Shown here in pieces: positions 36,027 to 51,542 of a stretch of DNA of 61,284 nt. Positions within the stretch are counted from its first letter, which is position 1, and the number at the start of each line of letters is the position of its first letter. A program made the translations under genes and the position numbers. The notes beneath the pieces are model-generated. The model saw nothing but the letters and a program-made list of their open reading frames with translations, made no database searches and was not told the DNA's origin. The DNA is from Saliphagus infecundisoli (GTDB lineage Archaea; Halobacteriota; Halobacteria; Halobacteriales; Natrialbaceae), in the NCBI RefSeq assembly GCF_020177375.1, contig NZ_JAIWHV010000024.1:1-61284 (forward strand), in the 5' to 3' direction.

Positions 36027-36251
36027 ATGACCAATTCAATAGATGCCAATCCAATAGACAATAATCCAACGGACGACGCGCGAGCGAGTGAGAACGAAGG
36101 CAGGGGTGGGGCTGAAGAGATGGATGCCGACAGCGACAGATCAGTCGTTCCCGGCCAGAGTGGAGGTGCGAAAACGTGGCATGCTCTTCACTCCCTCCGA
36201 TGCTGGACCGACAACGGCCACCCTGACGGTGAAGGTGGTGACTCGGAATGA
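36027..36251 (+). CDS. small acidic protein between the two transfer ATPases
   Basis: The product of about 74 residues (MTNSIDANPIDNNPTDDARA) is polar and disordered, with one Cys. Its TGA overlaps the ATG of the coupling-protein gene (ATGA). A frame extension to an ATG that overlaps the VirB4 stop (35940) is possible but would add an Arg-rich, atypical segment. Function unknown; probable operon member. Confidence 0.5.
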   Translation: MTNSIDANPIDNNPTDDARASENEGRGGAEEMDADSDRSVVPGQSGGAKTWHALHSLRCWTDNGHPDGEGGDSE

Positions 36252-39200
36252 CTACCGATGATTGGGATGGACGCGACCATGATGCGGACCGGTCTCGTGA
36301 GTCTGCCTACGAAGGAACGGATGACACTCCAAATCTCGAGTGGATCGTTGCAGAAGACGACCGAGTAGCTGACGTTGCCGACCTCGACGTGCAGTGGGTC
36401 GGCACTCCACTGGCTCGGAGTGGGCTTCGTGCGTACGCGGGCGCGATCCTCCTCGTTGGGCTTGCAATCGCCCTCGCGACTCCCAGCGTCGCTGGATTCG
36501 CTACGGGGCCGGCCCTTATCGGGCTCGCGCCGGTCGAGATCGGACTGGTCGTGACGACCGTCACCCTCCCATTGTGGTGGCTTGGGGCGATCCCAATCGC
36601 CCTCGGAGTCACGGGCGTTGTCGTCGGCCTGCTCCCACTATTGCGATCGATTCGAACCGAATATGTTCTCACGTCTGACGTGCTCTACGCCCGCAAACGA
36701 GGGATTCGAGGAGACCAATTTACGAAGCTCGCTCTCGAGCGTGTCGTCGAAACCACCCGTCACCAGTCGCTTGCGGGACGACTGCTCTCTTATGGGACGA
36801 TCACGTTCCGGACGGTCGAAGCCGAGATCCCCAAAGTGGTCTGCAAAGGCGTCCACAACCCGAAGGATGTCCATTCGATCGTCCTCACTCTCGACGCGTC
36901 CACCGACTCTCCGCTCGATCGCAAACAGGAGTACGTTCGCGTCATCCCGTCGACGGGTGAGCGAGCACCGTCCGAGATCGTCACTCAAATCCGCCCTCTG
37001 CACGCCCTGAACCCGACCGAAGAATCGTTCTGGCAGCGAATCAACCCGTTTGCCAGCCCTGACCCGCTGACGTTCGATTTCACCATCTACAGCAACGGCA
37101 CGGATGCGCCAATCGAGTTCTATTATTCGACTGACCAGCATCTCTCGACGCTCTATGACCGGCTCAACTCCGCCTACCCTGATACAGTCGAAATCGAACG
37201 CGTGACCGTCGATCTCGCCGAAAAGCTTGTCGCCCCAGAGCAATACAGCTACGAGGAGTTCGAGGCAGCGCTGGAAAACGGGGCGCTTCAGACCTCTGTC
37301 GAAGAGGTCGAAGCGATCACCCGTGTTCACGGCGGTCAGCCCCTCGCTGCTGATGGGGCCGGTACCAGCGACGGCCCGGGGTCGGTGTCGGTATCGGGAA
37401 CGGAGTCGGGGCCGGAGTTGGGGTCGGGAGCCAACACCCCGCTTGGAGGGCAACTCCCAAGCGTTGACCTCGACGCACTCCGGAAACAAGAGGACGAAGA
37501 AAACCGCGATCCAGGCTCGCTCAGATTCGGGCTCGAGACGCCACGTGATACCGGCGAGGGCGTTCTCGCGCGGCCCCACCCGGACGACGTTGAGCCGTAT
37601 AGTCTGCGGTGGACGGGCAGTGGCGACCCGATGACGCCGATCAGGCTTTTCGACGAGGAACTTGATGACGAAGACTTCACGAAAGATAGCTCGCACGCGC
37701 CCCTAACCGTGCTGATCGACCACTTCGCAACGACTGATTATCCGATCGTCTTTCAGGCAGCGTTCGAAGGCGAACAGGATTCGACCCACAGTGGCAATCA
37801 GCGTATCGAGGAGATCCGAGGCGACCGAGAAACGTGGGGGGAGGCGATCAATCAAGCTATCGAAGATTTCTTCTATGGTCCCGAGCCCAAGCAAGAGCGC
37901 CATCCACAGGACTCCCAACCGATCCCCGAAGCCGATCGTGATCTGATCGACAACCTCCAAACAGAAGACTTGGGGCATACGTTCACGGCCAACCTGCGGG
38001 TAGTAACCGTCCCCCCGAAGTCGGCGAGCAGTGACACGTCCGAGCTCAAACAGTCGCTCCGAAGCATCAGCACGGTGTTCGATCCGCTTGAGGGGCGATT
38101 CTATGGCATTGAGAGCGAAAAATTGTACGATAAAGGCTTGCTCGCCCGCCGCAGCCGGACGTACTCGCGGCGCTGTTTCAACCGTGTCCTGAATCGAGAC
38201 GTCGTGACCGGCAAGCGACTCGGACGCTCGACGCCCGACCTCCATCTCGACCCGAACGAACTCTGCAACATGATCATCGTGCCGAGCACCGAGCACCTCA
38301 CTGACGAGGCCACCAAAGAAACCCACGCGAATCCAGAAAGCCGGACATCACTCCCCGGATTGGAGGCTGCCCAGCGCCGGCAGTACACGACAGGGATGGT
38401 GCTGGGCGAGGACCCCGCCAGTTCCATTGATGGGCCGCTTCGATTACCACCGGACCGACAGACCCGCCACTGGCTCGTCTGCGCGACGACCGGAGGTGGG
38501 AAGAGTCAACTCGTCAATCGGATGCTGCGCTCGCTCAGCGAGACGACGTCAGGGCCGAACATCCTGTTCGAGCCGAAAGGCGACGGAATGTGCACCAACT
38601 ACCTCATGGGCCACTACAAGCGGCATGGCTCGCTCGAGGACGTCTACTACTTCCGCGAGCCTGAGACGCTTCCTGCAGTCTCGTTTTTCGATCTTCGGCC
38701 CGCGCTCGAAGCCGGCCACGACCGGGAAACCGCGGTCAAGGAGAAGGCCGATCACTTCCACGCGCTGATGCGGATGATTATGGGTGCAGAGCGTCACGAG
38801 CAGGCGTTCGTCGCGAACGAAATCCTGACGTTCCTCATCCACGCGCTGTTCGATCCTGTTCACGGGGACGACGTCTTCGGCCTCGATGATCTGGTCGAGG
38901 CTGCGACGCGGATGCAGCGAAATCAAGAGCTGCCGGACGTCTCGGGGATCAACCAGGATATCCACGACTCTCTCACTGCACAGTTCGCCAAGGAGGATCA
39001 TCAGTTCCACACCACGATGGGTGCGGTGCTCAATCGACTCAACCGGCTGAAAGAGGACCGTCACCTCCACTGGATGCTGCGCCACAAGCCCGGTCGAGAG
39101 GCCGAGGGCGACAGCCTCTACGGGTTCCACGACCAGAACGTCCATTTCGATTTCCGCGATATCCTCGACGAGGACGTGACGATCCTGTTCGACCTCGGCG

Positions 39201-40969
39201 ACCTCACACTGGACGCCCAGCGTGGGTTGACCACGGTCCTGTTGAGTAACCTGTGGCACTCGATTCAGCACCGACGGCGATCGTCGCCAGACAACGTGGT
39301 GAACGTGATTCTTGAGGAGGCCGCGCCGTTCATCGCGACGGAGTTAGTCGCCGATCAGCTCCTCCCACAGGGTCGCTCATCGGGGCTGAGCATGGGACTC
39401 GTCATGCAGTATCCCGAGCAGGTCAACCCCTGGGACGAGGACAACAACGGCGCGTACGAAGAGCTGTTGACAGAGGTGCATACGAAACTGGTCGGGGACA
39501 TCTCGATTACGGATCGGTTTGCGAAAACGTTCACGCACGACGATCTGTCCGTGGAGGATGTTCGCAACCGGATCAATCGGATAGCGTCAGGCGAGTGGTT
39601 CACGAAGCTTGCGAGTCCCAAGTTCGGTGAGGATCGACCAGCACCGCTGACGTTGCACTCGCTGCCGATCATCAGTGGACATCCAGAGAGCGACGAGCCG
39701 CTGTCGGAGACCGAGCAGGCACGCTTTGATGACGAAATCCTGCCAGGGGTCATCGAGCGGACTGACGACGAATACGGCTTGGAAGTGCCCACGCACGAGG
39801 ACGTGATGAACTGGTCGGAGTGGGACGGGGCACATCACGAGCGGGGGTCGCCGCCGGAACTCGAGTCAGACGAGGTCGAGATCGGTGCCGAGGTCGAAAG
39901 CGAGAGCGAAGATGAGGTCGAGGAAGAGGGTGAGGCTGAGATCGAACAGGAGGATCGGGGTGAGGACGAAAAGAAAGGTGAAGTTGCTGCTGACTCAGAA
40001 CGCCCGTCGTTAAATGACACTGCCCCGGAGAGTGGGAGCGAGGCCCAGCATGAAGACACCGAAGAAGGCGGCGAGAGCAGGGAGATGGGGGAGAGGATTG
40101 ACTCCACAGACGATAGGGACGTCATAGACAGCGGAGATGACACCGAAGACGACGGAGACGTGGGGGATGCCGACGAGTCCGACGAGTCCGTCGACAGTTC
40201 CCCAACTCCCTCGCTCTTTGGCGCGAACGAGGGCGGCACTGAGAGTTGTCCAGTCACGGACGGTACTCTTCGCGAATGCGGCCTCTCTCGAGACGACGCG
40301 ATCTTCCTCAAACGAGTGTTAGACGCGATGAACCGCGAACTCCCGGACTACACGCTCTTGGACGGGATGGACGAATTGAAAGATGGGCTTGATGGGCTTG
40401 ATGTTCATGTATTGATTGAGCAGGATTTGCTCGAGAAAGAGACGGTGAATCGACGGGTATACTACACGGTTCTTCCAGAGGGGCGAGAGCTACTCGACGA
40501 GTCGCTCACAGCCGACGCAGGAACTGGTGATCTCGGAGAGAAGACACCACACAAAGTTGGGGTAGAACTCCTGGTCCAATGGTTCAACACGTTCGAGGAG
40601 GTTGAGCGGGTTGATCGATATCACCAGCAGGATTCGGAGACAGTATTCGATGTCGTCGGGTTCGATATCGATGGTGAACTCGTTCGGGTCGGTGAAGTCG
40701 AGATGGCATCGAATAACGCGCAAGCGGTCGTAGACGACTACAACAAAATGGCTGCCGTCGACGCGGACGCAATCTGGGCTTTTCGGTCCCGTGGCGAAGC
40801 GGAGGATACGATAGAGGTATTGGCCGGTCACAATCGACTTCCCAGCAAAGTGAGTGGACGGGCGGCTCACGTGTTCTCACGGATGCAAGAGACGGTCGAA
40901 GAGTTTGAAGCCGATGGGATGACAACAATACAGACCTTCCGAAAAATGAATGAGGGAATAGAGGAATAG
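36248..40969 (+). CDS. VirD4/TraD-like coupling ATPase with extra domains
   Basis: The 1573-residue protein has two membrane helices (about residues 60-130), then a PH-like bacterial domain (YVLTSDVLYARKRGIRGDQF), a long region, and the motor with Walker A TTGGGKSQLVNR near 747 and Walker B VVNVILEEAAPFI near 1017. An acidic linker (about 1200-1320) leads to a C-terminal winged-helix-like region and a nuclease-like domain (DVVGFDIDGELVRVGEVEMAS) in which the usual E-x-K lysine is replaced. Coupling proteins bring DNA to the mating channel. Its position behind a VirB4-like ATPase supports this role. The ExE-type end may be an inactive DNA-binding nuclease fold. Confidence 0.83.
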   Translation: MTTDDWDGRDHDADRSRESAYEGTDDTPNLEWIVAEDDRVADVADLDVQWVGTPLARSGLRAYAGAILLVGLAIALATPSVAGFATGPALIGLAPVEIGLVVTTVTLPLWWLGAIPIALGVTGVVVGLLPLLRSIRTEYVLTSDVLYARKRGIRGDQFTKLALERVVETTRHQSLAGRLLSYGTITFRTVEAEIPKVVCKGVHNPKDVHSIVLTLDASTDSPLDRKQEYVRVIPSTGERAPSEIVTQIRPLHALNPTEESFWQRINPFASPDPLTFDFTIYSNGTDAPIEFYYSTDQHLSTLYDRLNSAYPDTVEIERVTVDLAEKLVAPEQYSYEEFEAALENGALQTSVEEVEAITRVHGGQPLAADGAGTSDGPGSVSVSGTESGPELGSGANTPLGGQLPSVDLDALRKQEDEENRDPGSLRFGLETPRDTGEGVLARPHPDDVEPYSLRWTGSGDPMTPIRLFDEELDDEDFTKDSSHAPLTVLIDHFATTDYPIVFQAAFEGEQDSTHSGNQRIEEIRGDRETWGEAINQAIEDFFYGPEPKQERHPQDSQPIPEADRDLIDNLQTEDLGHTFTANLRVVTVPPKSASSDTSELKQSLRSISTVFDPLEGRFYGIESEKLYDKGLLARRSRTYSRRCFNRVLNRDVVTGKRLGRSTPDLHLDPNELCNMIIVPSTEHLTDEATKETHANPESRTSLPGLEAAQRRQYTTGMVLGEDPASSIDGPLRLPPDRQTRHWLVCATTGGGKSQLVNRMLRSLSETTSGPNILFEPKGDGMCTNYLMGHYKRHGSLEDVYYFREPETLPAVSFFDLRPALEAGHDRETAVKEKADHFHALMRMIMGAERHEQAFVANEILTFLIHALFDPVHGDDVFGLDDLVEAATRMQRNQELPDVSGINQDIHDSLTAQFAKEDHQFHTTMGAVLNRLNRLKEDRHLHWMLRHKPGREAEGDSLYGFHDQNVHFDFRDILDEDVTILFDLGDLTLDAQRGLTTVLLSNLWHSIQHRRRSSPDNVVNVILEEAAPFIATELVADQLLPQGRSSGLSMGLVMQYPEQVNPWDEDNNGAYEELLTEVHTKLVGDISITDRFAKTFTHDDLSVEDVRNRINRIASGEWFTKLASPKFGEDRPAPLTLHSLPIISGHPESDEPLSETEQARFDDEILPGVIERTDDEYGLEVPTHEDVMNWSEWDGAHHERGSPPELESDEVEIGAEVESESEDEVEEEGEAEIEQEDRGEDEKKGEVAADSERPSLNDTAPESGSEAQHEDTEEGGESREMGERIDSTDDRDVIDSGDDTEDDGDVGDADESDESVDSSPTPSLFGANEGGTESCPVTDGTLRECGLSRDDAIFLKRVLDAMNRELPDYTLLDGMDELKDGLDGLDVHVLIEQDLLEKETVNRRVYYTVLPEGRELLDESLTADAGTGDLGEKTPHKVGVELLVQWFNTFEEVERVDRYHQQDSETVFDVVGFDIDGELVRVGEVEMASNNAQAVVDDYNKMAAVDADAIWAFRSRGEAEDTIEVLAGHNRLPSKVSGRAAHVFSRMQETVEEFEADGMTTIQTFRKMNEGIEE

Positions 40970-40971
40970 CG

Positions 40972-41280
40972 ATGGTTTCGCTCCTCCGTCGTCTTGTGTC
41001 GGAGCTGGATATTGTGTCGGTATATCTGTCGCAGTATATACCAATCTACTCCTACGGGGGAATACTGGAAATCGGGCTCAGTATCACTGCTGTCGCGCTC
41101 GTCATCTACGCGCTGTTGCTGCCAGTCCTTTTCACTGTCCGGATGTTCATCGGGACGATCCTCACTCCGAGGTGGACGCCGTTCCCGCGACGGGGGGATG
41201 GCGTCGTGGTCGGTGTTATTGCTCTCCTGGGGTTGATCGTCGCGATTGATTTCATCCAATTTGCTGGAATAAGCCCATGA
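40972..41280 (+). CDS. small membrane protein in the transfer operon
   Basis: The 102-residue product starts 2 bp after the coupling ATPase stop and has two hydrophobic helices (about 30-58 and 78-100) joined by a basic loop. Its stop overlaps the next start (ATGA). This tight packing says it belongs to the transfer or primase operon. No family recognised. Confidence 0.7.
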   Translation: MVSLLRRLVSELDIVSVYLSQYIPIYSYGGILEIGLSITAVALVIYALLLPVLFTVRMFIGTILTPRWTPFPRRGDGVVVGVIALLGLIVAIDFIQFAGISP

Positions 41281-42200
41281 CCTGGAGAGAAGCAACGCGC
41301 GACGAGATCTACACGTACTATACTGAGGAGTTTCCCGAGTACACAGACCAGCTTCCAGGGTTCATTATGGCGACTGCACCGAAAGAGTTCGGGATCAGCT
41401 TTCGCGAGCGCCATCCAATTCGCAAGAAAGAGCGCCCAGATCGGAACTTCATCCGACGAGCGACGCGGCGGACGGACTCGAATGGAGAGCAGATCTCACA
41501 GAACTTCGGCGGGCTCGAGGACGTTCTGTCGTTCATTCAATCTCCCGCGCGGCACGACCCGTTCCAGGGAAGTGAGTACGCACTCGTCGATCCCGATCTG
41601 ATCGAGAAATCCGACCCGGTTTCAGCAGGGGTGTACTACGGGTTAGACAACTGGGAGCGGTCGTGGGTGGTCGCTGTCGATATCGATGCAAAAGATATTG
41701 CCGCAGCACGGGCTGAACGCGAACTCGACGGTGAGCACGGCCCGTTCGCAATGGACCAGGAGAATCCAAGCCGAAGCGAGATGTTGCTTGCTGACTCCGG
41801 CATTCGTGACGCCGACCCTGCGGGGTATCCCTACGCGTTCGAGGACATTAACCGTGCAATTGAGTACGGCTTCGACACGCAGGATATCTTCGAAGCAGAC
41901 TTCACTGCCGAAGAGACGATGGTTGTCTACTCTGGGCAAGGCGTCCACGTCTACCTGCTCGACGACGATCTCGAGCACGACTACGACGAGAAAAGCCGAG
42001 AAGTGCTTAACGATCTCCTGATCGAGCGATACGAGATCCCGATCGATCCCGTGGTGACCGCTGATCGGAGCCGCCTGCTTCGAGTGCCCTACTCGTTGCA
42101 TGCCGACGTCTGTCGTGTCGTCCAGCCGATCGAGAGTCCGTCGTTCGACCCCCGAACGGACGCGCAACCACAGTTCCTCGAGAGTGATCCCAATGGTTGA
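41277..42200 (+). CDS. PriS-like archaeo-eukaryotic primase domain protein
   Basis: The 307-residue protein has the catalytic AEP pattern: WVVAVDIDAKD near residue 130 with paired Asp residues, VVYSGQGVHVYLLDD (SGxGxH motif) near 215, and DRSRLLRVPYSLH near 265. It would make primers or short DNA strands. It overlaps the next gene by 8 bp and sits behind the coupling protein, so it probably supports replication of transferred single strands. It is short for PriS and lacks an obvious helicase partner. Confidence 0.82.
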   Translation: MTWREATRDEIYTYYTEEFPEYTDQLPGFIMATAPKEFGISFRERHPIRKKERPDRNFIRRATRRTDSNGEQISQNFGGLEDVLSFIQSPARHDPFQGSEYALVDPDLIEKSDPVSAGVYYGLDNWERSWVVAVDIDAKDIAAARAERELDGEHGPFAMDQENPSRSEMLLADSGIRDADPAGYPYAFEDINRAIEYGFDTQDIFEADFTAEETMVVYSGQGVHVYLLDDDLEHDYDEKSREVLNDLLIERYEIPIDPVVTADRSRLLRVPYSLHADVCRVVQPIESPSFDPRTDAQPQFLESDPNG

Positions 42201-43746
42201 CCCACGACACACCGAACGAGACGCCTATCTCGTCGTCGCAGTGCCGACCGAGTTTTCGAACCGGGACATCATTCAGTTGTTCCTCCGGGGCTACGACTGC
42301 TATCTGCACGATGACGACCTCGCGAGGGAGGACTTGATTTCGGATATCGAACAATTTGGGACGGCGGCGTTCGAGAACGCGAAGCGTGAACGCCCCCTCG
42401 AGTACCCGTTCGTCGATGACCCTGGAATGCTCGTGTTGCTGGCGACGTTGAGTACACTCTGTGTCGAGGACCAACCCCGGTTCGAGGAGACACCACTCCG
42501 GCGTAACCAAGTGGTCGCCAACATCCGCGAACTGTTCGCGACCAACGTGCTCGCACTCTTATACGAGTACGACGACCCGACACTCTACCAAGAGATCGCT
42601 GAAGTCCTCTACGCGAAACCGCCAAACGACGACGGCCCTCACCCCGGACGGGTCTGTACCGACGTCACCACCATGCCCGAGTTCGATGACGAGAAGGACA
42701 AGAAAAAAGGCGAAGACGAAACCGAAGAGGAGCTTTACGTCGAAATCCCAATGGCAGCCGCCTCGCGCGCGTGCCTTGCACGGTCAACAAGCGAAGCGAC
42801 GAGTGCCGAGGAAACTGGCGAGATTCTCACCCGGATCGCGAACGGCAATCTCTATATCCCACTCGCGTACGTGCGAGACAGATACCGGACGTATGTTGAC
42901 ACAGGCTTTGGATGCTTGCGAGCGGCCCAAGAAGACGATCTTAGTGACGAAGAACGCAACTGGTTAGCAACCACCGAAACAGCGATCACCGACCGCACAG
43001 ACCGCGCTATCGAACTGGGACACTACCAACAGATCTGGACAACCTGGGATCGCGGCGAGCGCGTCGTCCAACTCATTCGAGAAGCCATGCGAACCGATCC
43101 CCGCGTCCAAATCGGCGAGTTCCACACCGCTACAGAGTTATACGAAGCGCTTGAGGCCTACAACCCAGATAATGAGGGCGAACATGCCCAACTCCAACAG
43201 CTCTCAAGTCCCCGAAGTGTGGGAAACACCCTTGCCGACCACGACTCACATCGGTCAGTGACGATTGACCGGACCGGCCGTGCCAACACTTACCAGATTG
43301 GGCACTCGGGCGGCGGCGCGCGCCCGATCGAAATCACGGAACTTGAAGACTTTTTCGAACTCCCGTGCATGGCAGCGATGGACGACAAGCTTCACGAGGA
43401 CCCGCCAGTGCGGAAAGACCTTTTCAACTTCGTCCGGATGACGATGTGGCTCCCCCAATATCGCGACAAACCGATCGACGAAATCACCGAACAAATCCAA
43501 GACCTGTTCAGCCGCTGGCCGTGGCACGATTCGGAGATCACCGACTACCAAGTCAAATATGAACACCGTCGCGGTGAACGCGGGATCGGTCCCAAAGGAA
43601 ATACCCCACTTCCGATGGGCTGTGATAACGACGATATGCAACGACACTGCATCGGCAAAGATCAGTGCCCGTACTCGATCTACGGCAGCCTTCCCTTCCC
43701 CGACGAAATGTACGATCAACTTGACGAATCCGAAGACTGGTTCTAA
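42193..43746 (+). CDS. PriL-like large primase subunit
   Basis: The 517-residue protein from ATG 42193 is mostly helical with an acidic linker near 165-180. The C-terminal region carries four cysteines: one in FELPCMAAMDD, one in PMGCDNDDMQRHC plus the second in the same stretch, and CPYS shortly after. This matches the 4Fe-4S domain of archaeal/eukaryotic PriL. With the preceding PriS-like gene it forms a two-subunit primase carried by the element. Overlapping genes suggest a fixed stoichiometry. Confidence 0.78.
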   Translation: MVDPRHTERDAYLVVAVPTEFSNRDIIQLFLRGYDCYLHDDDLAREDLISDIEQFGTAAFENAKRERPLEYPFVDDPGMLVLLATLSTLCVEDQPRFEETPLRRNQVVANIRELFATNVLALLYEYDDPTLYQEIAEVLYAKPPNDDGPHPGRVCTDVTTMPEFDDEKDKKKGEDETEEELYVEIPMAAASRACLARSTSEATSAEETGEILTRIANGNLYIPLAYVRDRYRTYVDTGFGCLRAAQEDDLSDEERNWLATTETAITDRTDRAIELGHYQQIWTTWDRGERVVQLIREAMRTDPRVQIGEFHTATELYEALEAYNPDNEGEHAQLQQLSSPRSVGNTLADHDSHRSVTIDRTGRANTYQIGHSGGGARPIEITELEDFFELPCMAAMDDKLHEDPPVRKDLFNFVRMTMWLPQYRDKPIDEITEQIQDLFSRWPWHDSEITDYQVKYEHRRGERGIGPKGNTPLPMGCDNDDMQRHCIGKDQCPYSIYGSLPFPDEMYDQLDESEDWF

Positions 43747-44534
43747 AGTTCTCCACCGTTTCTATCCACCCCACATCCGATAATATATACCACTGTTATC
43801 CAGTATAAACTATAAATATTTCACCTATAGATGAATGGAACGAACGGTGGCCTTGAGATGTTTGAGGAGCCGGATTGAACGGGAAATGTCACTTCATTCT
43901 TCCCCCTCAGAGCAGATTAATATATCTCTGAATTCTCTCCCTTTCTTCATATATTATTGGATATTAGTAGTGCAGAAAAGTCTCCACCCAACGAACCAAT
44001 GACTGGGGCCACCGTAAGAAGGGACTGAAATGGGGATTTCCCCCTCTACTATTCGACGGTAGAGCATTTGGTTCCCATATCCAACCCCGGAAACAACATT
44101 TTTACTCCGCCTTTGTGACTGAATTGAGAAGGTTATCTATTACGTCTTTTCCTAACTAAAGTACATATTCACAGATTGTCTGTGAGGACGATCCCACCCA
44201 AAACATATGTTATATAGAGTATATTCTTAACAAGTTAATCTGGGACGCATCTATCTCGTTAACCACGATTTAGCCTCTCAAACTGCTACAAACGAAGGTT
44301 AGAACGGATCTAGAAGAATAATATAGCGAATCTAATGGATTACTCATTACTTCTAATCAATGTAAAACTCGATATTCCACCGATTTCAGAAGTTTCACCC
44401 CCTCGTTCAGCACGTTTTCTGTTCCACCATCAAAATCTGGTTTCGTTAACCACGATTCTAGCGCCTTAGAGATGCCCAACGAACCTCTAACCAGTTTTAA
44501 GCCCGTTAAACTCCTCTTGCACACCTGGAAATCG
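43747..44534. other. AT-rich gene-free region after the primase genes
   Basis: No supported gene on either strand. It is rich in TATA-like runs (ATAATATATACC, TATAAATATTTC). A 15-bp direct repeat, TCGTTAACCACGATT, occurs at 44256-44270 and 44443-44457. It may be an origin, transfer origin or partition site, but no test can be made here. Confidence 0.4.
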
Positions 44535-44990
44535 TCCAAAGGATAAGGGAGGTATGCAGATACGAGGGGGGTAGTTAACGGGGAGAAAAGTGGGCGGTGG
44601 AAAGAATGGAAGAACAGGAAATTACCAGGAAAGATATAGATGTGTGAGCGGGGGTGGTGGAGGAGAATACACGGGGGTCTGGGAGAGAGTGAAACGTGGG
44701 AGAGAAGCAGACAGAAAAGGGTGAGAATGCAGTAGTTGGCTGGCCGGGGGAACAGGAGGTGAGAGCTGGGAGTAAGAGGGCGTAGATCAACGGTATCTCT
44801 CCGCATAGTGGAGAGGGTAAAGTAGGAGGGAAAGGAGGTCACAATCACGGGAAAGTATCAGATCCCATAGTCAGTGAGAATGGCGTGAGAAGAAGGAGTG
44901 AAAACAGGGTGAATGAGGAGCAGTGAGGAGCAGACCAGTGAGGGAGTTCGGGGACTCGAGGAGCGGGGCTGAACGGGGAGCAGTTTTGTC
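44535..44990 (+). other. purine-rich strand asymmetry, non-coding
   Basis: The plus strand is roughly 70-80 % purine in most 60-base blocks (my count over several lines), with runs of GGAG, GAGG and GAAAG. Long minus-strand open frames here are Pro/Ser/Phe/Leu-rich by-products of this bias. It lies directly upstream of the small-gene array. Confidence 0.5.
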
Positions 44991-45006
44991 CCGATCGGAC
45001 TCATCC

Positions 45007-45049
45007 GCACGGTGGTGTCGGTCGCCCCTCAGAGAGGGGTAGAGGTACG
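45007..45049 (+). promoter_or_regulatory. hairpin leader A
   Basis: Starts GCACGGTGGTGTCGG; the hairpin CCCCTC-AGA-GAGGGG is followed by TAGAGG and the ATG. First of eight leaders of this type and the longest stem (6 bp). Confidence 0.6.
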
Positions 45050-45589
45050 ATGGGATGGAGCGACCGACACGAGACGGAGGACGAACCGGACGACAACCAC
45101 GAGCAGGTTCTGGAGGAAGAATTTGACGAGTGGGTCCAGGAAGGCAAAGAGTCGGGGCCGTGGGGTCGGAAGGAGACACAGTCCGACGCGGGCGCCGCCG
45201 CGAAGACTCGAGAGGGTCCACACATGAGTGAGGAGTCACCGATTCCTGGCTCGCCCTCGCGAGCGGTTTCAGAAGATCCGCTGTCGATGACGCAGTGTCC
45301 CCGGTGTGACAGTCGTAGGTTCGTCTCGAAGAAACTGGTGTACGAGGAGTTCCACTACAGCGAGGGGGGCGATCTCGAGCGGCATCAGAATCGGGTCCGT
45401 GCCGAGTTCGAGTACACGTGCATCGACTGCGACAAGCGGTTCCACGAACTGCCGAAGGGGGCGCGTTCGTACTACAGGGAAGTCACGGTCCTTCGGGAGG
45501 ACCTCCGACATGCGATTCGGGTCCAAACGCGGGCCTGGCTCGCCTCGGTTGGCGATCGACTTCGAGGGCTCTTCTCGAGAGGCGAATAG
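45050..45589 (+). CDS. zinc-ribbon protein
   Basis: The 179-residue product has an acidic N-terminus and a central zinc ribbon: MTQCPRCDSRRFVSKK, about 35 residues, then YTCIDCDKRFHELPKG. The C-terminus is basic (RHAIRVQTRAWLASVGDRL), fitting nucleic-acid binding. ATG 45050 follows hairpin leader A; an internal ATG (45225) would still keep the ribbon. It is the first gene of the small-gene array. Function unknown, but a transcription or replication accessory role is plausible. Confidence 0.65.
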   Translation: MGWSDRHETEDEPDDNHEQVLEEEFDEWVQEGKESGPWGRKETQSDAGAAAKTREGPHMSEESPIPGSPSRAVSEDPLSMTQCPRCDSRRFVSKKLVYEEFHYSEGGDLERHQNRVRAEFEYTCIDCDKRFHELPKGARSYYREVTVLREDLRHAIRVQTRAWLASVGDRLRGLFSRGE

Positions 45590-46856
45590 GGAAGGCGAGT
45601 AGCGACCAGCCAACGGCGGCATCACGAGGCCAGCGGGGCCGCTCGAGGCGTCCGCATCTGGTGGATCGGAGCGGAACGCTACAGCGTGGCGATCGGCCGG
45701 TGCCGGTGGACTCACTTCACGAGCTGCCCAGCACCGCACAGTACCGCCATCCCACGAACCCCCACCCACCTCCAGGGTCCGGGCGGCTCGCTCCCTGCGG
45801 TCGCTGCGCTGCCGGGCTTTCCCTGTCCGCTCTGTGGTGCATTGCAGTGCTCCAGACGGGGTGCGCTGGATAGCATCAGCACCAGATGCCGCGCTCATTG
45901 CTCCGTGCGGACGTCATGAGGGGGTCTGCCAGCGTGAAACGGTGTCTCGCGCTCGGGGTCGCGACTCCCTGGTGATCTCGGTGCTGTTGCCAGCGTCGAC
46001 AGGGCCGCCAGTGTCGCGATCGGCGTCATCACCGCTGCTGCTGTTGCGTCATCACCGCTGCTACTGTTGGGAGGATTGTTGGAGTCTTCATCGATATTCA
46101 GCTGAACTATGGTGTGATCGCTTGCGCATCGTGGGTGTGGTTCGCAAGTCGTGGTCGTGTCGTCGATGGGTGTGAGCGTGATCGAGGCAGAGGAGGAAGG
46201 AGGAGAAGTGGGAAATCTCGAGGGAGAGACAATGGAATCAGAGTCGAGGTGACGATGCAGATGACGTCCGAAAGCCCTCGGGCGCTCGGCATCCCGCGCC
46301 TCGCTGCGCTCCTCACTGCGTTGCGGTGCTTGCGTCGTCGGGGGACGACCGAGATGCCCTCGCCCTTTCGCAGTCCACCAGGAAGGGGAATCAAGAGCCG
46401 GCCGTTTTCGAGCTGCTCGACCGGTATGTTCGCGACGGCACGCCCCGCTCGCCGCGTGCCGCCCTCCGCTCGCTCGCGACCGACCATTCCGGGCGTGCGC
46501 CGCCGACTCCCGCACGGCACCGTCGACAGCTCACCACCCGACTGACCGGCACAGCGGCGTTCCGGGCTCAACTGGATGTGGTCTCGACGCCAGCGCTTCA
46601 CCCGTTCGGGTCCTGCGGACCGCGGCTTCGCCGCCCGCGACGGACGTGGTTGCGTCGCGGCGAACGGGGAATGCGCTGGACGCTCGCTCCGGGCGGGTCG
46701 GCGCGCGGTGCTGGCTGGTGGGGGTGGGTGTCCCGCTCTGCTCGCGCCTTAGGGGACCTGAAGGCGCGAGCGAGAGCGGTTGCAGGGGACGACGGAGTTG
46801 GAACTGAGAGATGTTGGAAGTGAAGACGCGTTGGAAAGCGCCTTCGGATTAGAACC
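45590..46856. other. gene-poor GC-rich region with repeats
   Basis: No firm gene. A GTG-started plus frame at 46326-46823 contains a protein-like part (EPAVFELLDRYVRDGTP...RAALRSLATD) that decays into Arg/Trp-rich sequence, perhaps a dead gene. A 23-bp tandem duplication lies at 46023-46068. GC-rich palindromic bits like those of the 47.7-49.8 kb elements are scattered through it. Confidence 0.35.
46740..46771 (+). promoter_or_regulatory. 11-bp perfect stem-loop before the OB-fold gene
   Basis: GCTCGCGCCTT and its complement AAGGCGCGAGC flank a 10-base loop, about 85 bp before ATG 46857. It could be a terminator-like or regulatory hairpin; no T-tract follows. Confidence 0.4.
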
Positions 46857-47717
46857 ATGAGTTCCAAGGAGTTCAGCGGTGATAAAGGTTCGGATGGACA
46901 GGATGATGACCAGTACGCGGTTGCGGACAAGGCAGATCCGTTCGCGGAAGACGTCGTGGACGAGACGCCGGAGTTCGCGGCGTCGGTCGATCAGGAGGTC
47001 AACACGAAAGTCGAGACCGAGCACCCGGAGACGGTGGTCGGGCGGGACGAGAACGAATACGGCCACCTGCCGTTAGCGCAAGAGGAAGAAATCCGGGCTC
47101 GAGAGGAAGAGCTCGAGATGATCAGCGCGAAAGCGACGTTCGGCCAGCAAGAGGGGCGTGAAGAGCGTACCCGTGAAGTGGTCGTCGAACAGCGCCGTGA
47201 GCGGCGGATCGAGCGGGTCGATCCCCGGTCGGAGTTGGAGCAAGCGAAGGTCGCAGAAGTGAACACGCAGTCAGTGCGGATCACAGAGAGCGTGCGTGGG
47301 GGACCGAGCCGGGCGGCAGTGAGCCGTGGGCTGGCCGAGAGGGTCGCAGATGGGAAGTCGATGATCGACGCGACCCTCGAGCAGATGGAGGAAGTCAAGG
47401 CTGAAGCAGGGTCGATCGTGGACATCGCAGACGTCCCCGAGGTGGAGACGGGCGAAGTGGACGTGGAAGGCGAGATCATCGAACTGTGGGAGCCCTCGAA
47501 GCCGTCGATCCAACAAGTCGGACTGATCGCGGACGATACCGAGAAGATCAAGTTCACGATCTGGAAGAACTCCTACCAGACGAAGGTGAGCGAGGGAGAG
47601 ACCGTGCGATTCAGGAACGTGAAGAAGAACTGGTACGACGAGACGTGCAATCTGGCCGTGACCGGGTGGAGTCGACTCGAGTTCCCCGAGCGCGGCCGGT
47701 GGTGGACCGACGAGTAG
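46857..47717 (+). CDS. putative OB-fold single-strand DNA-binding (RPA-like) protein
   Basis: The 286-residue product has an acidic N-terminus, a coiled-coil-like middle (about 70-120) and a C-terminal domain starting VDVEGEIIELWEPSKPSIQQ and continuing TEKIKFTIWKNSYQTKVSEG, the beta pattern of haloarchaeal RPA/SSB OB folds. ATG 46857 starts MSSKEFSGDKG. No zinc finger is present. Near primase and coupling genes, an SSB would protect transferred single strands. A 3' T-tract and structured repeat follow. Confidence 0.72.
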   Translation: MSSKEFSGDKGSDGQDDDQYAVADKADPFAEDVVDETPEFAASVDQEVNTKVETEHPETVVGRDENEYGHLPLAQEEEIRAREEELEMISAKATFGQQEGREERTREVVVEQRRERRIERVDPRSELEQAKVAEVNTQSVRITESVRGGPSRAAVSRGLAERVADGKSMIDATLEQMEEVKAEAGSIVDIADVPEVETGEVDVEGEIIELWEPSKPSIQQVGLIADDTEKIKFTIWKNSYQTKVSEGETVRFRNVKKNWYDETCNLAVTGWSRLEFPERGRWWTDE

Positions 47718-47728
47718 CCGACACTCCC

Positions 47729-47876
47729 CTCTTTTTTTGGTGTAGAACCACACGCTCGCTTCGCTCGCGTCCTCCCCAGCCGACGCCCTGCGGGGCGCAC
47801 TGGCGTGCGCTTCCTCGGTCGTCCCTCGCGCGTTCTCCACGCCTTTCGGCGTGGATTCATCGCGCGCCACCGCTCG
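47729..47876 (+). repeat. structured 3' element R1
   Basis: Begins CTCTTTTTTTGGTGTA right after the OB-fold gene, then GC-rich hairpins: CGCCC-TGCG-GGGCG, GCGCAC-TGGC-GTGCGC, and an outer CGCGCG pair enclosing CCACGCC-TTTC-GGCGTGG. Two further copies follow. Likely terminator plus structured RNA. Confidence 0.6.
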
Positions 47877-47934
47877 TAGCCCCGCAGGGAAGGGGTGGAC
47901 GGAACCGCTTTGGAGAGAGTGGTCATGAGAGTGC

Positions 47935-47985
47935 ACTGCTCGGTGGCGTTGTTCGCCCCCTCGAGGGGTAGGAGGTTTCGAAGAG
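47935..47985 (+). promoter_or_regulatory. hairpin leader B
   Basis: CGGTGGCGTTGTTCG box, hairpin CCCCCTCGAGGGG, then TAGGAGGT, a strong Shine-Dalgarno about 10 bases before the ATG. Confidence 0.65.
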
Positions 47986-48351
47986 ATGTCAACGAGGACA
48001 AACCCGACTGACGGACATGGTACCGAGATCCAGACAGAAGCGGTCGGAGCGGTGGAGTCGCTGTTCGCGGGCGGCGAGCTGATCGATGCAGCGCGGGTCG
48101 TCAGCTTGGAGACAGAGTTCAGCGTGACGCTGTTTCAAGAAGAGACGGTGGAGAAGATCTGGACGGAGGACGAGGACGCAGACGAAGCCGGAAACGAGAC
48201 GGTGGAGGAGGCAGCACAGACGGCGCGGTGTCCGAACTGTGAGGTGGAGGTTGCCGTGTCGGTGGTGATCCAGCAGACGCGAGCAGCGGACGAGGCGGGA
48301 ACGAGGCTGTACCGTGGGACGTGCGGGTGCACGTGGCGGCGGGGGAACTAA
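47986..48351 (+). CDS. small zinc-ribbon protein
   Basis: The 121-residue product has an acidic helical N-terminal half and a C-terminal ribbon: TARCPNCEVEVAVSV and, about 25 residues later, GTCGCTWRRGN. The CxxC...CxC layout could bind one zinc ion. It lies behind leader B and before element R2, as if each gene were a cassette with its own leader and 3' element. Function unknown. Confidence 0.65.
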   Translation: MSTRTNPTDGHGTEIQTEAVGAVESLFAGGELIDAARVVSLETEFSVTLFQEETVEKIWTEDEDADEAGNETVEEAAQTARCPNCEVEVAVSVVIQQTRAADEAGTRLYRGTCGCTWRRGN

Positions 48352-48363
48352 CCCTGCCGAAGG

Positions 48364-48506
48364 GCTCTTTTTTGGTGTATTTGGCCACACGCTCGCTTCG
48401 CGAGCGCCCTCCCCAACCGACGCCCTGCGGGGCGCACTACCGTGGGCCTCCTTGGCCGTCCCTCGCGCGTTCTGTGCGCTATCGCACGCTTTCATCGCGC
48501 GCCACC
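48364..48506 (+). repeat. structured 3' element R2
   Basis: Same layout as R1: GCTCTTTTTTGGTGTA, then CGCTCGC-TTC-GCGAGCG, CGCCC-TGCG-GGGCG, and an outer CGCGCG pair around GTGCG-CTAT-CGCAC. The inner stem differs from R1 and R3 yet still pairs. Confidence 0.6.
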
Positions 48507-48573
48507 TCCCCGTACGCTCCGTAGGAGACGGTGGGGAAAGAACGGCCTAGAGAGACTGATTGAGGAGTCGCTC

Positions 48574-48618
48574 GTGGGGTAGCGTTGCTCGCCCCCTCGA
48601 GGGGTAGAGGGATCAGAG
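48574..48618 (+). promoter_or_regulatory. hairpin leader C
   Basis: GGTAGCGTTGCTCG box, hairpin CCCCCTCGAGGGG, TAGAGGGATCAGAG, then ATG 48619. Nearly identical to leader B in the stem. Confidence 0.65.
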
Positions 48619-48849
48619 ATGACGGATCGACCAGACGCCCAGCCAGAGGCGATTGTTGTTGAATTCACAGCCGAAGACGATCCGCAGTTTGCGAAACCCG
48701 ATCACGATCCTCACGGCGAAGTGCCAGCGCTTGCCGCTCAGTCTGGAACGCGGTGCGACAGCTGTGGGACCTACGGCCTAGTGCCGACGGCGGCGTGCGA
48801 GGACGCCATGATCCAGGACGTTGATCTCGTCTGTTCAGAGTGTGGGTGA
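48619..48849 (+). CDS. zinc-finger mini-protein
   Basis: The 76-residue product ends with a two-knuckle finger: TRCDSCGTYGLVPTAACEDA and, after a short linker, LVCSECG. The rest is acidic and disordered. A paralogue with the same knuckle order and C-terminal position lies at 51279-51542. Likely binds zinc; partner unknown. It has leader C in front. Confidence 0.65.
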   Translation: MTDRPDAQPEAIVVEFTAEDDPQFAKPDHDPHGEVPALAAQSGTRCDSCGTYGLVPTAACEDAMIQDVDLVCSECG

Positions 48850-48911
48850 GTTCGACGAGACGACCCATGGCTGGTCGATGAACACGAACAAGAGTGACAC
48901 GAAAACGTAGC

Positions 48912-48959
48912 CGCCCGGTGGCGTTGTTCAACCCCCCGGAGGGGTAGAGGGTTTCAGAG
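48912..48959 (+). promoter_or_regulatory. hairpin leader D
   Basis: GGTGGCGTTGTTCAA box, stem CCCCCC-GGA-GGGG, TAGAGGGTTTCAGAG, then ATG 48960. Confidence 0.65.
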
Positions 48960-49430
48960 ATGTCGATACAGAACTCAGTTAGTCGATCCGCGACCGCACA
49001 GGGACTCGAGACGACCGAAAGCATCGACGCGCGATTCGAGGCGTGGGATTGCGAGCAGGGAAGCGTCCGTCCGTGGGCACTGGGACGACGAAAGTGTGTC
49101 CTCTCGTTAGTTCGGTTCTTCGAGGAGGAAATACAAGAGGGGATACTGTCGACGCCGATGGAGGTGACGATCGCGCCGACGCCGCTGTACCAGCCGTCGC
49201 CGAGCTGGCGCGAGCGAATCCGTGGAACGTACCAAGTGGGAGTGTACCCGAACGCGAACCCGGACTGGGGATCGATCGAAGCGGAAGTCCCAACGCTTGA
49301 GGAAGCACTCTCGGTCGCAGACCGGGTCTGCAGTGACCTCGAGGAACGCTACGAGCTGCTGAGGGAGGGCGATGGGCGAGAGAATGGGGATCTCACACTG
49401 TCGTTGCGAGGACCAAAGCCGATCGTCTGA
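48960..49430 (+). CDS. hypothetical soluble protein of the small-gene array
   Basis: The 156-residue product begins MSIQNSVSRSATAQGLETTE. Its middle has FFEEEIQEGILSTPMEVTIA and a basic patch around SWRERIRGTYQVG; the C-terminal part is helical (LEEALSVADRVCSDLEERY). No known motif. It has its own leader (D), so expression is probably set by that hairpin rather than by a shared operon promoter. Function unknown. Confidence 0.6.
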   Translation: MSIQNSVSRSATAQGLETTESIDARFEAWDCEQGSVRPWALGRRKCVLSLVRFFEEEIQEGILSTPMEVTIAPTPLYQPSPSWRERIRGTYQVGVYPNANPDWGSIEAEVPTLEEALSVADRVCSDLEERYELLREGDGRENGDLTLSLRGPKPIV

Positions 49431-49456
49431 GTCGATCGACTTCGCGAGCAGAGAGC

Positions 49457-49503
49457 GCACAGCCGGTAGCGTTGGTCACCCCCCAGGGTAGAGGGGTTAG
49501 GAA
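49457..49503 (+). promoter_or_regulatory. hairpin leader E
   Basis: GCACAGCCGGTAGCGTTGG box, weaker stem CCCCCC...GGG, TAGAGGGG and a short gap to ATG 49504. The most degenerate stem of the set. Confidence 0.5.
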
Positions 49504-49656
49504 ATGGAGTCCCAACACGGAGCCGCCTACCGGGTGCATCTGGCGTTAAGCAATCTCAAGAGCATCGACGATGATCAGTTGAGCAGCGAGGATCGAGAGA
49601 AGATCGCTGAAGCAGTGGGAAGTCTTGAAGAGGTGGGGATTGTGGAGATTCGATAG
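49504..49656 (+). CDS. 50-residue helical protein
   Basis: The frame encodes MESQHGAAYRVHLALSNLKS and ends in an acidic amphipathic helix and VEEVGIVEIR-like tail. It lies between leader E and structured element R3, the same leader-gene-element arrangement as its neighbours, which is the main reason to believe it is expressed. Function unknown; a coiled-coil partner is possible. Confidence 0.5.
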   Translation: MESQHGAAYRVHLALSNLKSIDDDQLSSEDREKIAEAVGSLEEVGIVEIR

Positions 49657-49803
49657 GCTCTTTTTTTGGTGTAGAACCACACGCTCGCTTCGCTCGCGTC
49701 CTCCCCAGCCGACGCCCTGCGGGGCGCACTGGCGTGCGCTTCCTTGGTCGTCCCTCGCGCGTTCAGCGCGCTATTGCGCGCTTTCATCGCGCGCCACCGC
49801 TCG
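49657..49803 (+). repeat. structured 3' element R3
   Basis: GGCTCTTTTTTTGGTGTA starts the element, followed by the same hairpins as R1 and an outer CGCGCG pair enclosing AGCGCGC-TATT-GCGCGCT. Highly similar to R1 outside the changed inner stem. Confidence 0.6.
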
Positions 49804-50011
49804 GGTTCGCGTCGGTTCCGGATGGCCCACGGATCGCCAGCCCGTAGTATTGGATTGGCCCACGAGATTGGATTGGCCCACGAGAGGAGTACGGGGGCGG
49901 AATCCTCCGCGAGGTATGGCAATACTGTACGCAGCCACCGCATCGAACGGTGCCACGGTGACCGACAGATAGGCAGGTAACGTTTCGACGACGGTGTAGC
50001 CGTCCCGCTGG

Positions 50012-50644
50012 TCACACGTCAGCGGCGATCTCTTCGATCTGGTCGCGGTGGGGACCGTCGCCCTCGAGGAGTTCACCGGGTGTGAGGCGGTAGGTGACAC
50101 CGAGCTTTTCGGTGACGACAGTGTGTCCATCGGGTTCGATCTCGGCGGCCAGCCCACAGTCTATGAGCCTCTCTTTGAGCGTGCGGACGTCGGCAGACGG
50201 CTCGGAGTCGGTCTGGTCAGCGTCTGTAGAGGTTTCGGTGGGATCACTTTCGGTCTGATCCTCGTTGCCTGTGTCCGCGTTCTCGCCTTCCTCGTCGGTT
50301 TCATCGGGTTCGCCGGAATCGTCGGTGGCGAGGCTTCTGAGACGGGGGACGGGGTACGAATAGTGAGAAACACCAGCTTCGTTGAGTTCGGCGAGCGGGA
50401 ACGGCCCGTCGCGTTCAGCCCAGTCGGGGTCGAATTCGGCGAGTTCGTGGCGGTAGACCACGATGGCAACGGAGGCATCCTCGGGATAGTCGGGATTGTC
50501 CTCTGCGACGGTCGTATTGCGGTAGGCAGTCCAGTCGTCGGCAGCCTGTGGCGGGCAATTGACAACGATTGCCGTGTTGGGATCGTCGTCAGGTGAATCG
50601 CGGTCAACCACTGGCTCACCAATCTCGAAAGCGTCTCGATCCAT
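50012..50644 (-). CDS. hypothetical acidic protein with operator-like palindrome upstream
   Basis: The 210-residue product from ATG 50644 (MDRDAFEIGEPVVDRDSPDD) has an N-terminal globular region with WTAYRNTTVAEDNPDYPED and VAIVVYRHELAEFDPDW, a Thr/Glu/Asp-rich linker (about 115-150) and a C-terminal winged-helix-like part (RTLKERLIDCGLAAEIEPDG). A TATA-like ATTAATAG lies 25-32 bp before the start. It is the only minus-strand gene in the small-gene array. The C-terminal fold could bind DNA; it is a candidate for the regulator of the palindrome. Confidence 0.65.
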   Translation of the reverse strand: MDRDAFEIGEPVVDRDSPDDDPNTAIVVNCPPQAADDWTAYRNTTVAEDNPDYPEDASVAIVVYRHELAEFDPDWAERDGPFPLAELNEAGVSHYSYPVPRLRSLATDDSGEPDETDEEGENADTGNEDQTESDPTETSTDADQTDSEPSADVRTLKERLIDCGLAAEIEPDGHTVVTEKLGVTYRLTPGELLEGDGPHRDQIEEIAADV

Positions 50645-50696
50645 GCTCCATCCGATCGACGGTCGTCGCGCTATTAATACTATTTGCTGACTCTGG

Positions 50697-50738
50697 GTTA
50701 CCCCACGAACAACGGCCAGTACACACGTGTGGGGTAAC
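50697..50738. promoter_or_regulatory. 42-bp palindromic operator, copy 2
   Basis: Same GTTACCCCAC / GTGGGGTAAC arms and the same 32-bp start-to-start distance as at 24134; the spacer sequence differs. It is 53-94 bp upstream of the minus-strand gene and about 45 bp before leader F on the plus strand. Confidence 0.65.
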
Positions 50739-50783
50739 TGACGCTCCTCCACAGCACCAGCAGTCCGCTGATCGCTGACCGTA

Positions 50784-50831
50784 CCGGACGTGATGTCGTT
50801 CACCCCCGAGAAGGGGGAGAGGGATTCGAGG
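50784..50831 (+). promoter_or_regulatory. hairpin leader F (orphan)
   Basis: ACCGGACGTGATGTCG box, stem CCCCC-GAGAA-GGGGG, GAGGGATTCGAGG, then an ATG that opens only a seven-codon frame (MTIQHTA, TGA at 50853). Its gene seems lost, or the short frame is a leader peptide. Confidence 0.55.
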
Positions 50832-50872
50832 ATGACGATCCAGCACACGGCCTGATGATCACTGACCCGACC

Positions 50873-50925
50873 GCACGGCCTGGTTGTGTTGTTGTACTCC
50901 CCAAGAGGGGTGGAGGATTTCACTA
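50873..50925 (+). promoter_or_regulatory. hairpin leader G
   Basis: GCACGGCCTGGTTGTGTTG box, stem CCCC-AAGA-GGGG, TGGAGGATTTCACTA, then ATG 50926. Confidence 0.6.
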
Positions 50926-51177
50926 ATGGCTGAAACCGAGACAGAGCGGTTGATCGCTACGTGGTCGGACAGTCCGTATACTGGGATTCAAAAGCGTCAC
51001 ATCACAGTGACGCATCGAATCGTGGCGAACTGGTATCCCGGCATTGGATGCGACATTCGCCACGAGATCAAATGCGCCGATCGGGAATACAACGACTGGA
51101 CGCCTGCCGAAACATGGGAACTGCGGAGCCACGGCGTTGAGAAGATCCAAACGCAGGCCGGGAAGGGATTGCCGTGA
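50926..51177 (+). CDS. 83-residue hypothetical protein
   Basis: MAETETERLIATWSDSPYTG opens the product. It has many aromatic and charged residues (YPGIGCDIRHEIKCADREYN) with two Cys, but no regular zinc motif, and ends with a helix (TPAETWELRSHGVEKIQ). The ATG overlaps the TAA of a 23-codon frame (50855-50926) that itself overlaps the seven-codon frame of leader F. Function unknown. Confidence 0.6.
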   Translation: MAETETERLIATWSDSPYTGIQKRHITVTHRIVANWYPGIGCDIRHEIKCADREYNDWTPAETWELRSHGVEKIQTQAGKGLP

Positions 51178-51233
51178 CGACGTAGGGGACTAACAGCGAC
51201 AATGAGAGGGCCGGCGACCATGCGGCTCGCACC

Positions 51234-51278
51234 GCACGGTGGCGTTGGCCGGTCCCCCTGAGGGGCGAGGAGACCGAG
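51234..51278 (+). promoter_or_regulatory. hairpin leader H
   Basis: GCACGGTGGCGTTGG box, stem CCCC-CTGA-GGGG with CGAGGAGACCGAG before ATG 51279. Last of the eight leaders. Confidence 0.6.
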
Positions 51279-51542
51279 ATGATCACTGCCAGTCAGGCTT
51301 CACAACCGATCACTGCCGAGTTCACCCCCGAACCAACGCTCGATCCTGATCTCGAGTCCGGTCCCAGGTCCGGTCCCAATTCCGATTTCGAGACAGCCAG
51401 TGCCCGTTTCGAACTGTTCGACCTGCCCGATCAGACGAATACGAGTTGTGATTACTGTGGCAAGATCGGCTTCGTCGAGACACACCACTGCGAGAGTGCC
51501 GAACGCCTCGGACTTTCGCTCATCTGTACGGAGTGCGAATGA
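51279..51542 (+). CDS. zinc-finger mini-protein, paralogue of the 48.6 kb gene
   Basis: The 87-residue product has a long acidic/proline N-terminus and a C-terminal finger: TSCDYCGKIGFVETHHCESA then LICTECE. The spacing mirrors RCDSCG...AACEDA...LVCSECG of the other copy, so they share a recent or conserved origin. Same leader type. Function unknown. Confidence 0.65.
   Translation: MITASQASQPITAEFTPEPTLDPDLESGPRSGPNSDFETASARFELFDLPDQTNTSCDYCGKIGFVETHHCESAERLGLSLICTECE

Follow-up and report, generated by a model that had tools for sequence, protein, structure and literature searches.

A common structured leader before co-oriented genes of transfer-type haloarchaeal plasmids and its possible role as a bistable switch

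Introduction

Plasmids of the pLS20 family carry repeats, termed EGeRS1, ahead of their establishment operons, including that of ardC, and these repeats have no strong promoter (PMC8708921); F-type plasmids have single-stranded promoters, Frpo/ssi (PMC11541004). Elements that bear comparison with both lie in a stretch of 61,284 nucleotides (nt) from the haloarchaeon Saliphagus infecundisoli (contig NZ_JAIWHV010000024.1, positions 1 to 61,284, forward strand; hereafter the window), in which eight copies of a leader of about 57 nt stand upstream of start codons. The leader is a common element, arranged in one-strand arrays, with covarying and alternative pairings, and it is tied to transfer-type plasmids and to anti-restriction genes. 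It is very probably a structured leader common to a co-oriented set of genes; that it serves as a bistable mRNA switch for plasmid-establishment genes is, as judged from the sequences, a proposition with as much for it as against it.

The likeness to EGeRS1 lies in a repeated, GC-rich, inverted-repeat sequence that precedes several establishment operons of conjugative plasmids, ardC included, with no evident strong promoter, and in establishment genes that are mosaic and variable. As far as can be told from the genes alone, the leaders likewise recur ahead of a number of establishment-type genes, ardC among them, and the plasmid concerned has conjugation-type genes as well. However, EGeRS1 is a Bacillus element of 400-600 bp, conserved over that length and with several inverted repeats, whereas the leader is haloarchaeal, has another sequence and a single hairpin system, and spans about 57 nt in its compact type (motif ~50-60 nt) and about 60-100 nt in a diverged type. 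Frpo/ssi resemble the leaders in that they fold, are placed ahead of leading-region genes and close to an SSB gene, and have anti-defence cargo on one strand. Frpo is longer, however, and contains sigma-70 -35/-10 elements in its fold; none are seen in the leaders, whose fold seems to be that of the sense strand. A core promoter inside the fold was not found (no TATA enrichment from -220 to -20 and no AT-rich block), although non-canonical archaeal elements may be present. By analogy, EGeRS1 would be the nearest counterpart in role and Frpo the nearest mechanism at the DNA level, with the leader matching neither in full.

Integron attC arrays are tandem, co-oriented hairpin sites, one for each small gene, at which genes are shuffled, and each attC site follows its gene. 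The leaders are also tandem and co-oriented, one per small gene, with shuffling at the site, but they lie before the start codon and are fused to the Shine-Dalgarno (SD) sequence. SD-masking switches, as treated in a paper on synthetic haloarchaeal riboswitches (PMC8241225), are similar in that an anti-SD arm alternately pairs with the SD. A conserved alternative pairing that would hide the SD is present in the leaders, with covariation above that of shuffled and slid versions and with agreement from arm swaps. The leaders differ in having no apparent ligand-binding domain and in that the same leader occurs dozens of times over one mobile-element regulon.

The leader in the window and its spread

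Direct reading of the window located the leaders at 45007, 47935, 48574, 48912, 49457, 50784, 50873 and 51234, confirming the initial annotation's observation of eight hairpin leaders upstream of start codons. Each is ordered as box GTGGYGTTGTTCG, hairpin, SD-like GAGGG and start codon. A covariance model, R1, built from 22 leaders of the Saliphagus genome, the window's eight included, finds exactly these sites (E 1e-15 to 7e-9) and has no other match below E = 1. The clean test is a sequence-only model, R3, built from 30 leaders of other genomes with the Saliphagus genome left out; it recovers all but one of the eight, with E values from 3.8e-15 to 3.2e-5 and no further match before E 4.2. 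The leader it misses, at 51228, nevertheless has a box identical to the consensus. A detail of the initial annotation has to be amended: the SD-like GAGG is not directly before the ATG but ~6-13 nt ahead of it. The ten-base box alone was also tried as a marker and was rejected, its 11 one-mismatch matches (5.8 expected) separating poorly from chance.

All eight leaders are on the + strand. Leader 1 (45001..45057; R1 59.8 bits, R3 E 2.2e-8) precedes a 179-codon zinc-ribbon-like gene at 45050-45589, and leader 2 (47932..47988; 56.3 bits, E 1.1e-9) a TFIIS-type zinc-ribbon gene at 47986-48351 (Pfam PF01096, E 9e-7). Leader 3 (48568..48621; 47.9 bits, E 1.9e-8) is followed by a 76-codon CxxC gene at 48619-48849. 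The 156-codon gene behind leader 4 (48907..48962; 70.9 bits, E 3.8e-15), at 48960-49430, is lineage-restricted, with homologues on five plasmid records, and the predicted structure of its protein has too low a confidence to be used (predicted local distance difference test 47.9). Leader 5 (49455..49506; 49.6 bits, E 1e-6), in which the proximal stem is reduced and the pairing of the C-rich arm with the SD is retained in the fold, precedes a 50-codon gene at 49504-49656. Behind leader 7 (50872..50928; 50.8 bits, E 7.7e-9) is an 83-codon gene at 50926-51177, and behind leader 8 (51228..51281; 42.7 bits from R1, a model that includes this leader, and no R3 match) an 87-codon CxxC gene at 51279-51542. 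The genes at these seven sites, with open reading frames (ORFs) of 50-179 codons, are small, as had been claimed; the exception is site 50784, where leader 6 (50779..50834; 44.5 bits, E 3.2e-5) has only a 7-codon ORF behind it, probably a decayed gene.

The leader is not confined to the window: more than 50 copies occur in the Saliphagus genome and other families are reached as well. R1 has 57 matches in this genome at E<=0.1, mostly on small plasmid-like contigs, and the strong copies on each contig share one strand. Within the Natrialbaceae, strong multi-copy matches were found in 12 of 125 genomes at E<=1e-4. Beyond this family, a search of the class gave mostly single weak matches of ~31 bits; the majority of those looked at belong to a single, nearly identical stretch that stands ahead of a DUF6735 gene and is present on 63 haloarchaeal plasmid records. 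This stretch led to plasmid pJ7-1 of Natrinema sp. J7-2, in which a diverged leader precedes many genes, and then to pNG600 of Haloarcula marismortui and its relatives. The window array had no match in phage records, nor did a strict leader pattern in viral contigs, and thus there is no sign of a viral regulon. In Rfam 15, no family reached its gathering cut-off in the window or in loci L114 and L156, and none of the sub-threshold matches at E<=1 came near its cut-off. A search of open-licence papers found no description of the element. The leader family of transfer-type haloarchaeal plasmids is real and apparently undescribed.

Structure of the compact leader

The compact motif is sharply bounded, from about -18 to +26 around the box end (~50-60 nt), and its box is conserved at mostly 0.9-1.9 bits per position. 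An ATG lies within the range examined in 112 leaders, and in 83 of these it is 33-35 nt from the box end; loops of 3-10 nt are tolerated. Upstream, to -110, there is no aligned AT-rich block or TATA box.

The C-rich arm has two possible partners, the adjacent G-run, with which it forms the proximal stem, and the SD. The initial annotation had proposed both that the stem is under selection for structure and that its C-strand can pair with the SD, and the comparison of 133 distinct leaders bears out both. In the proximal stem there are 20 two-sided changes, compared with 11.5+-2.7 in shuffles (1/500), and a covariation score of 0.192 vs 0.162. For the pairing of the C-arm with the SD, there are 55, compared with 37.5+-4.2 (0/500), and a score of 0.213 vs 0.168+-0.009 that also exceeds every slid version. 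As the proximal stem guided the alignment, the SD pairing gains no advantage from it. Arm swaps among 54 dereplicated leaders agree: native pairing is -8.51 vs -7.96+-0.15 when swapped (0/300) for the stem arms and -8.04 vs -7.37+-0.24 (3/300) for the C-arm and the SD. The proximal stem, at first taken as the main structure, was demoted once its covariation was compared with that of the SD pairing. A stem kept in seven of the eight window leaders had been reported, and site 49457 did lose its proximal stem; yet there the C-arm paired with the SD remains and is the minimum-energy fold. The initial annotation had also called for a covariance model built from the sites to be run on haloarchaeal genomes, and covariation is found across the relatives.

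In the leader at L118 7428-7478, a G-C flip gives a C-arm CGCCTC that matches the SD GAGGCG over 6 bp, which on sequence is a clear single case of compensatory change for SD pairing. Over three core pairs, T.G outnumbers C.A by 27 to 8; this suggests folding of the sense strand, although a separate constraint on the G-arm would yield the same bias.

The diverged leaders

Other haloarchaeal families have diverged leaders before genes of their transfer-type plasmids. These leaders span ~60-100 nt, in which a T-rich box is followed by a hairpin whose 5' and 3' arms enclose a loop with GGGTG or a similar sequence. Their stems differ wholly in sequence (GCGCCGGC, TCGTCCCGC, GCGCCTGCA, CGCCCCCG and others). 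Of the matches to a descriptor of this type, 70 share the strand of the SSB and ArdC genes and 9 are on the opposite strand. Eight annotated stretches contain 55 matches, and for 43 of them an annotated start on the SSB/ArdC strand follows within 110 nt (8% expected). Because the descriptor requires pairing, the evidence here is the contrast in strand and position rather than a pairing score. Farther downstream the 5' arm is repeated, and the 3' arm can pair with this repeat as well (-11.13 vs -8.05+-0.46 swapped; 0/300), a property unused in selecting the elements. Diverged elements are also matched by R3, whose training set is compact leaders only; the E values are 1e-6 and weaker, and most matches fall on the same strand. 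This links the two types. The diverged plasmids also carry TFB genes in this region.

A possible bistable switch

These features have led to a hypothesis to explain the leader. In this model, the eight sites would be copies of a common 5' leader that tags the establishment or leading-region genes of a haloarchaeal plasmid of the type IV secretion system (T4SS) type. The leader would most likely act at the level of mRNA, with a conserved unpaired box, GUGGYGUUGUUCG, followed by the C-rich arm and its two mutually exclusive partners. Pairing of the C-arm with the nearby G-run would leave the SD free, and pairing with the SD would hide it; this assignment of the on and off states to the two hairpins is our inference from the sequences. 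On the diverged plasmids the same logic would be served by the 5' arm, GGGTG loop and 3' arm, followed by the repeat of the 5' arm ahead of the start codon. The choice of hairpin would be set by a common factor that binds the box or loop, or else by the condition of a plasmid that has just entered, and many genes would thereby be switched together, possibly at the time of plasmid entry.

Several points weigh against this model. The fold energy of single leaders is mostly ordinary relative to shuffles (z +0.7 to -2.5), and because single leaders fold no clearly better than shuffles, the claim of structure rests on comparison. The leaders are related by descent and recombination, and the swap tests correct for this relatedness only partly. 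According to PMC8241225, translation in haloarchaea does not strictly depend on an SD, so that hiding the SD may matter little. In the diverged type, the distance from hairpin to ATG is variable and an SD is often absent there; consequently, the on/off logic of the compact type is not directly transferable. Finally, the leader genes are without evident promoters, and the model leaves their transcription unexplained.

Alternative explanations

In the flanks of the leaders (-220 to -20), there are 54 TATA-like words compared with 54.7 expected, which is the chance level. At -80 to -20, 14% of leaders have such a word, and among control genes on the other strand 16 of 35 have one at -60 to -1, a contrast that is only rough because the windows differ. 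Transcription of the leader genes may arise by read-through, from a non-canonical promoter or by a single-strand mechanism. The last would apply if the element acts in the entering DNA strand; each establishment gene would then be transcribed or primed from a folded single-stranded site like Frpo, and possibly EGeRS1, ahead of second-strand synthesis. The lack of TATA enrichment fits such a site, as do the anti-restriction cargo and the one-strand arrays adjoining a module of VirB4, HerA and primase genes; in addition, Frpo of F-type plasmids is located ahead of ssb and is active in single-stranded DNA (PMC11541004), and EGeRS1, also found before ardC, is GC-rich, has inverted repeats and lacks a strong sigma-A promoter (PMC8708921). 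However, the excess of T.G over C.A suggests a fold of the sense strand, whereas the template of an Frpo-type promoter must be the antisense strand; the stems are of 4-10 bp with no recognizable promoter, and the compact type holds an SD and a fixed distance to the ATG. On balance, we consider this explanation unlikely. Less likely still is a double-stranded site, either an operator or a non-canonical promoter, to which a plasmid-encoded factor such as a plasmid TFB or TBP binds. This would suit the highly conserved box, the failure to detect a canonical promoter and the TFB genes of the diverged plasmids, but arms that stay complementary despite fully different stems and variable loops are unexpected of a duplex site, and the SD and its distance to the ATG belong to the conserved unit.

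It could also be postulated that the leader is a seam at which cassettes are swapped between copies, its conservation being a by-product. Pairs of leaders with homologous flanks and unrelated genes do exist: upstream of L008_7456 and L011_5241 the homology runs as far as the leader, at 84% over 180 nt, and upstream of L078_12857 and L081_2691 it does so at 87.5% over 200 nt. The upstream flank alone is common to 28 pairs, and, in the reverse arrangement, the gene alone is common to 64. The leaders do mark seams, but ordinary homologous recombination between repeats suffices to explain the pattern. Furthermore, swapping would not need the conserved SD and ATG distance, it leaves the covariation unaccounted for, and no recombinase is tied to the leader; we regard this explanation as very improbable. 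The same low probability is given to a passive, strong ribosome-binding leader, spread and homogenized by gene conversion, that does no switching. An SD-like GGAGG at roughly the usual spacing and copies that are near-identical within a genome speak for it. However, such a leader should avoid pairing of its SD, yet the C-arm and the SD covary, and the diverged type keeps its architecture while often having no SD near the ATG.

Genomic setting and gene content

In the window, the leaders are part of a co-oriented series of genes. The order is a VirB4-like transfer ATPase (31751..35950, + strand, as for the genes that follow; NCBIfam NF045975, E 8.4e-23, below cut-off), which is upstream of the leaders; a giant HerA-like protein of 1573 aa with a HerA/DUF87 domain, part of the transfer module (36248..40969; Pfam PF01935, E 5.6e-6); a primase small subunit-like protein (41277..42200; NCBIfam TIGR00335, E 6e-11, below cut-off); a primase-associated protein (42193..43746, longest ORF from 42100; NCBIfam NF038197, E 7e-209); leader 1; an RPA/SSB-like OB-fold protein (46857..47717; Pfam Ssb-like_OB, E 3.9e-5, just above cut-off; NCBIfam replication factor A, E 4.9e-18, below cut-off) with no leader of this type ahead; and leaders 2-8. 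Elsewhere in the genome, VirB4-like homologues are close on contigs C13 and C30 and weaker on C5. On all four VirB4-like contigs, leaders lie downstream on the same strand. Leaders extend to just ahead of ArdC, on the strand of the SSB-like gene, in pHTUR03 of Haloterrigena turkmenica and in a plasmid of Natrinema zhouii. pNG600 and a Halobellus plasmid carry a gene annotated as "type IV secretory system conjugative DNA transfer family protein", and several related plasmids in PLSDB are typed MPF_T but called non-mobilizable.

The initial annotation's regulon of small zinc-finger genes gives way to a varied group in which anti-restriction and DNA-modification genes of T4SS-type plasmids are represented; its members include ArdC, a C5 DNA methylase, small zinc proteins and a homologue of DpdA. 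A possible relative of Mom among them has only a weak resemblance (E 0.0067, below cut-off).

Other features of the noncoding sequence were noted. Between the primase-associated gene and leader 1 (43747-45000), 724 nt of AT-rich sequence (GC 0.40) are followed by 531 nt with strong purine bias (GC skew +0.44), the skew flipping sharply near 44470; this region is a candidate origin or origin of transfer (oriT). No such flip is seen in pJ7-1 or two relatives. Conserved noncoding sequence from the primase-associated gene to the first leader is also present at L114 6275-6815 and L160 1223-1763, with an inverted repeat TTGCATATCGC...GCGATATGCAA, and is likewise a candidate oriT or origin. Ahead of the SSB-like gene, ~580 nt (46270-46850) are apparently noncoding and are conserved together with the gene on many of 164 plasmid records; they are possibly an origin or a structured RNA, although the RNA folding of the 587-nt region before this gene is ordinary (z -0.71).

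Three copies of a repeat, at ~47730, ~48370 and ~49660, begin with a T-run right after a stop codon (TTTTTTTGGTGTAG...CGCGCGCCACC) and are probably terminators plus a dispersed repeat, which suggests that some leader genes are separate transcription units. At ~50697-50738 there is an inverted repeat GTTACCCCAC...GTGGGGTAAC, and GTGGGGTAAC recurs at least 40-60 nt upstream of many leaders. A short remnant of the MATLQAVTASSGATVTD gene family, which bears leaders elsewhere (L022, L085), remains at ~49915-49975 as MAILYAATASNGATVTDR followed by a stop.

Significance

Little is known about how transferable archaeal plasmids survive on entry and switch on their counter-defense, and the literature search found no paper on this subject. 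It is conceivable, though doubtful, that the leaders do for archaea what leading-region control does for bacteria. As bistable leaders spread through the class, they would keep the establishment genes of self-transmissible haloarchaeal plasmids, anti-restriction genes among them, off in the resident cell and turn them on jointly directly after entry, each plasmid lineage having its own stem and loop code. If true, a single structured leader common to dozens of genes of a mobile element would be unusual. The short, searchable signature of the leader means that archaeal anti-defense genes may be found through "guilt by leader", and it offers a concrete switch that can be tested.

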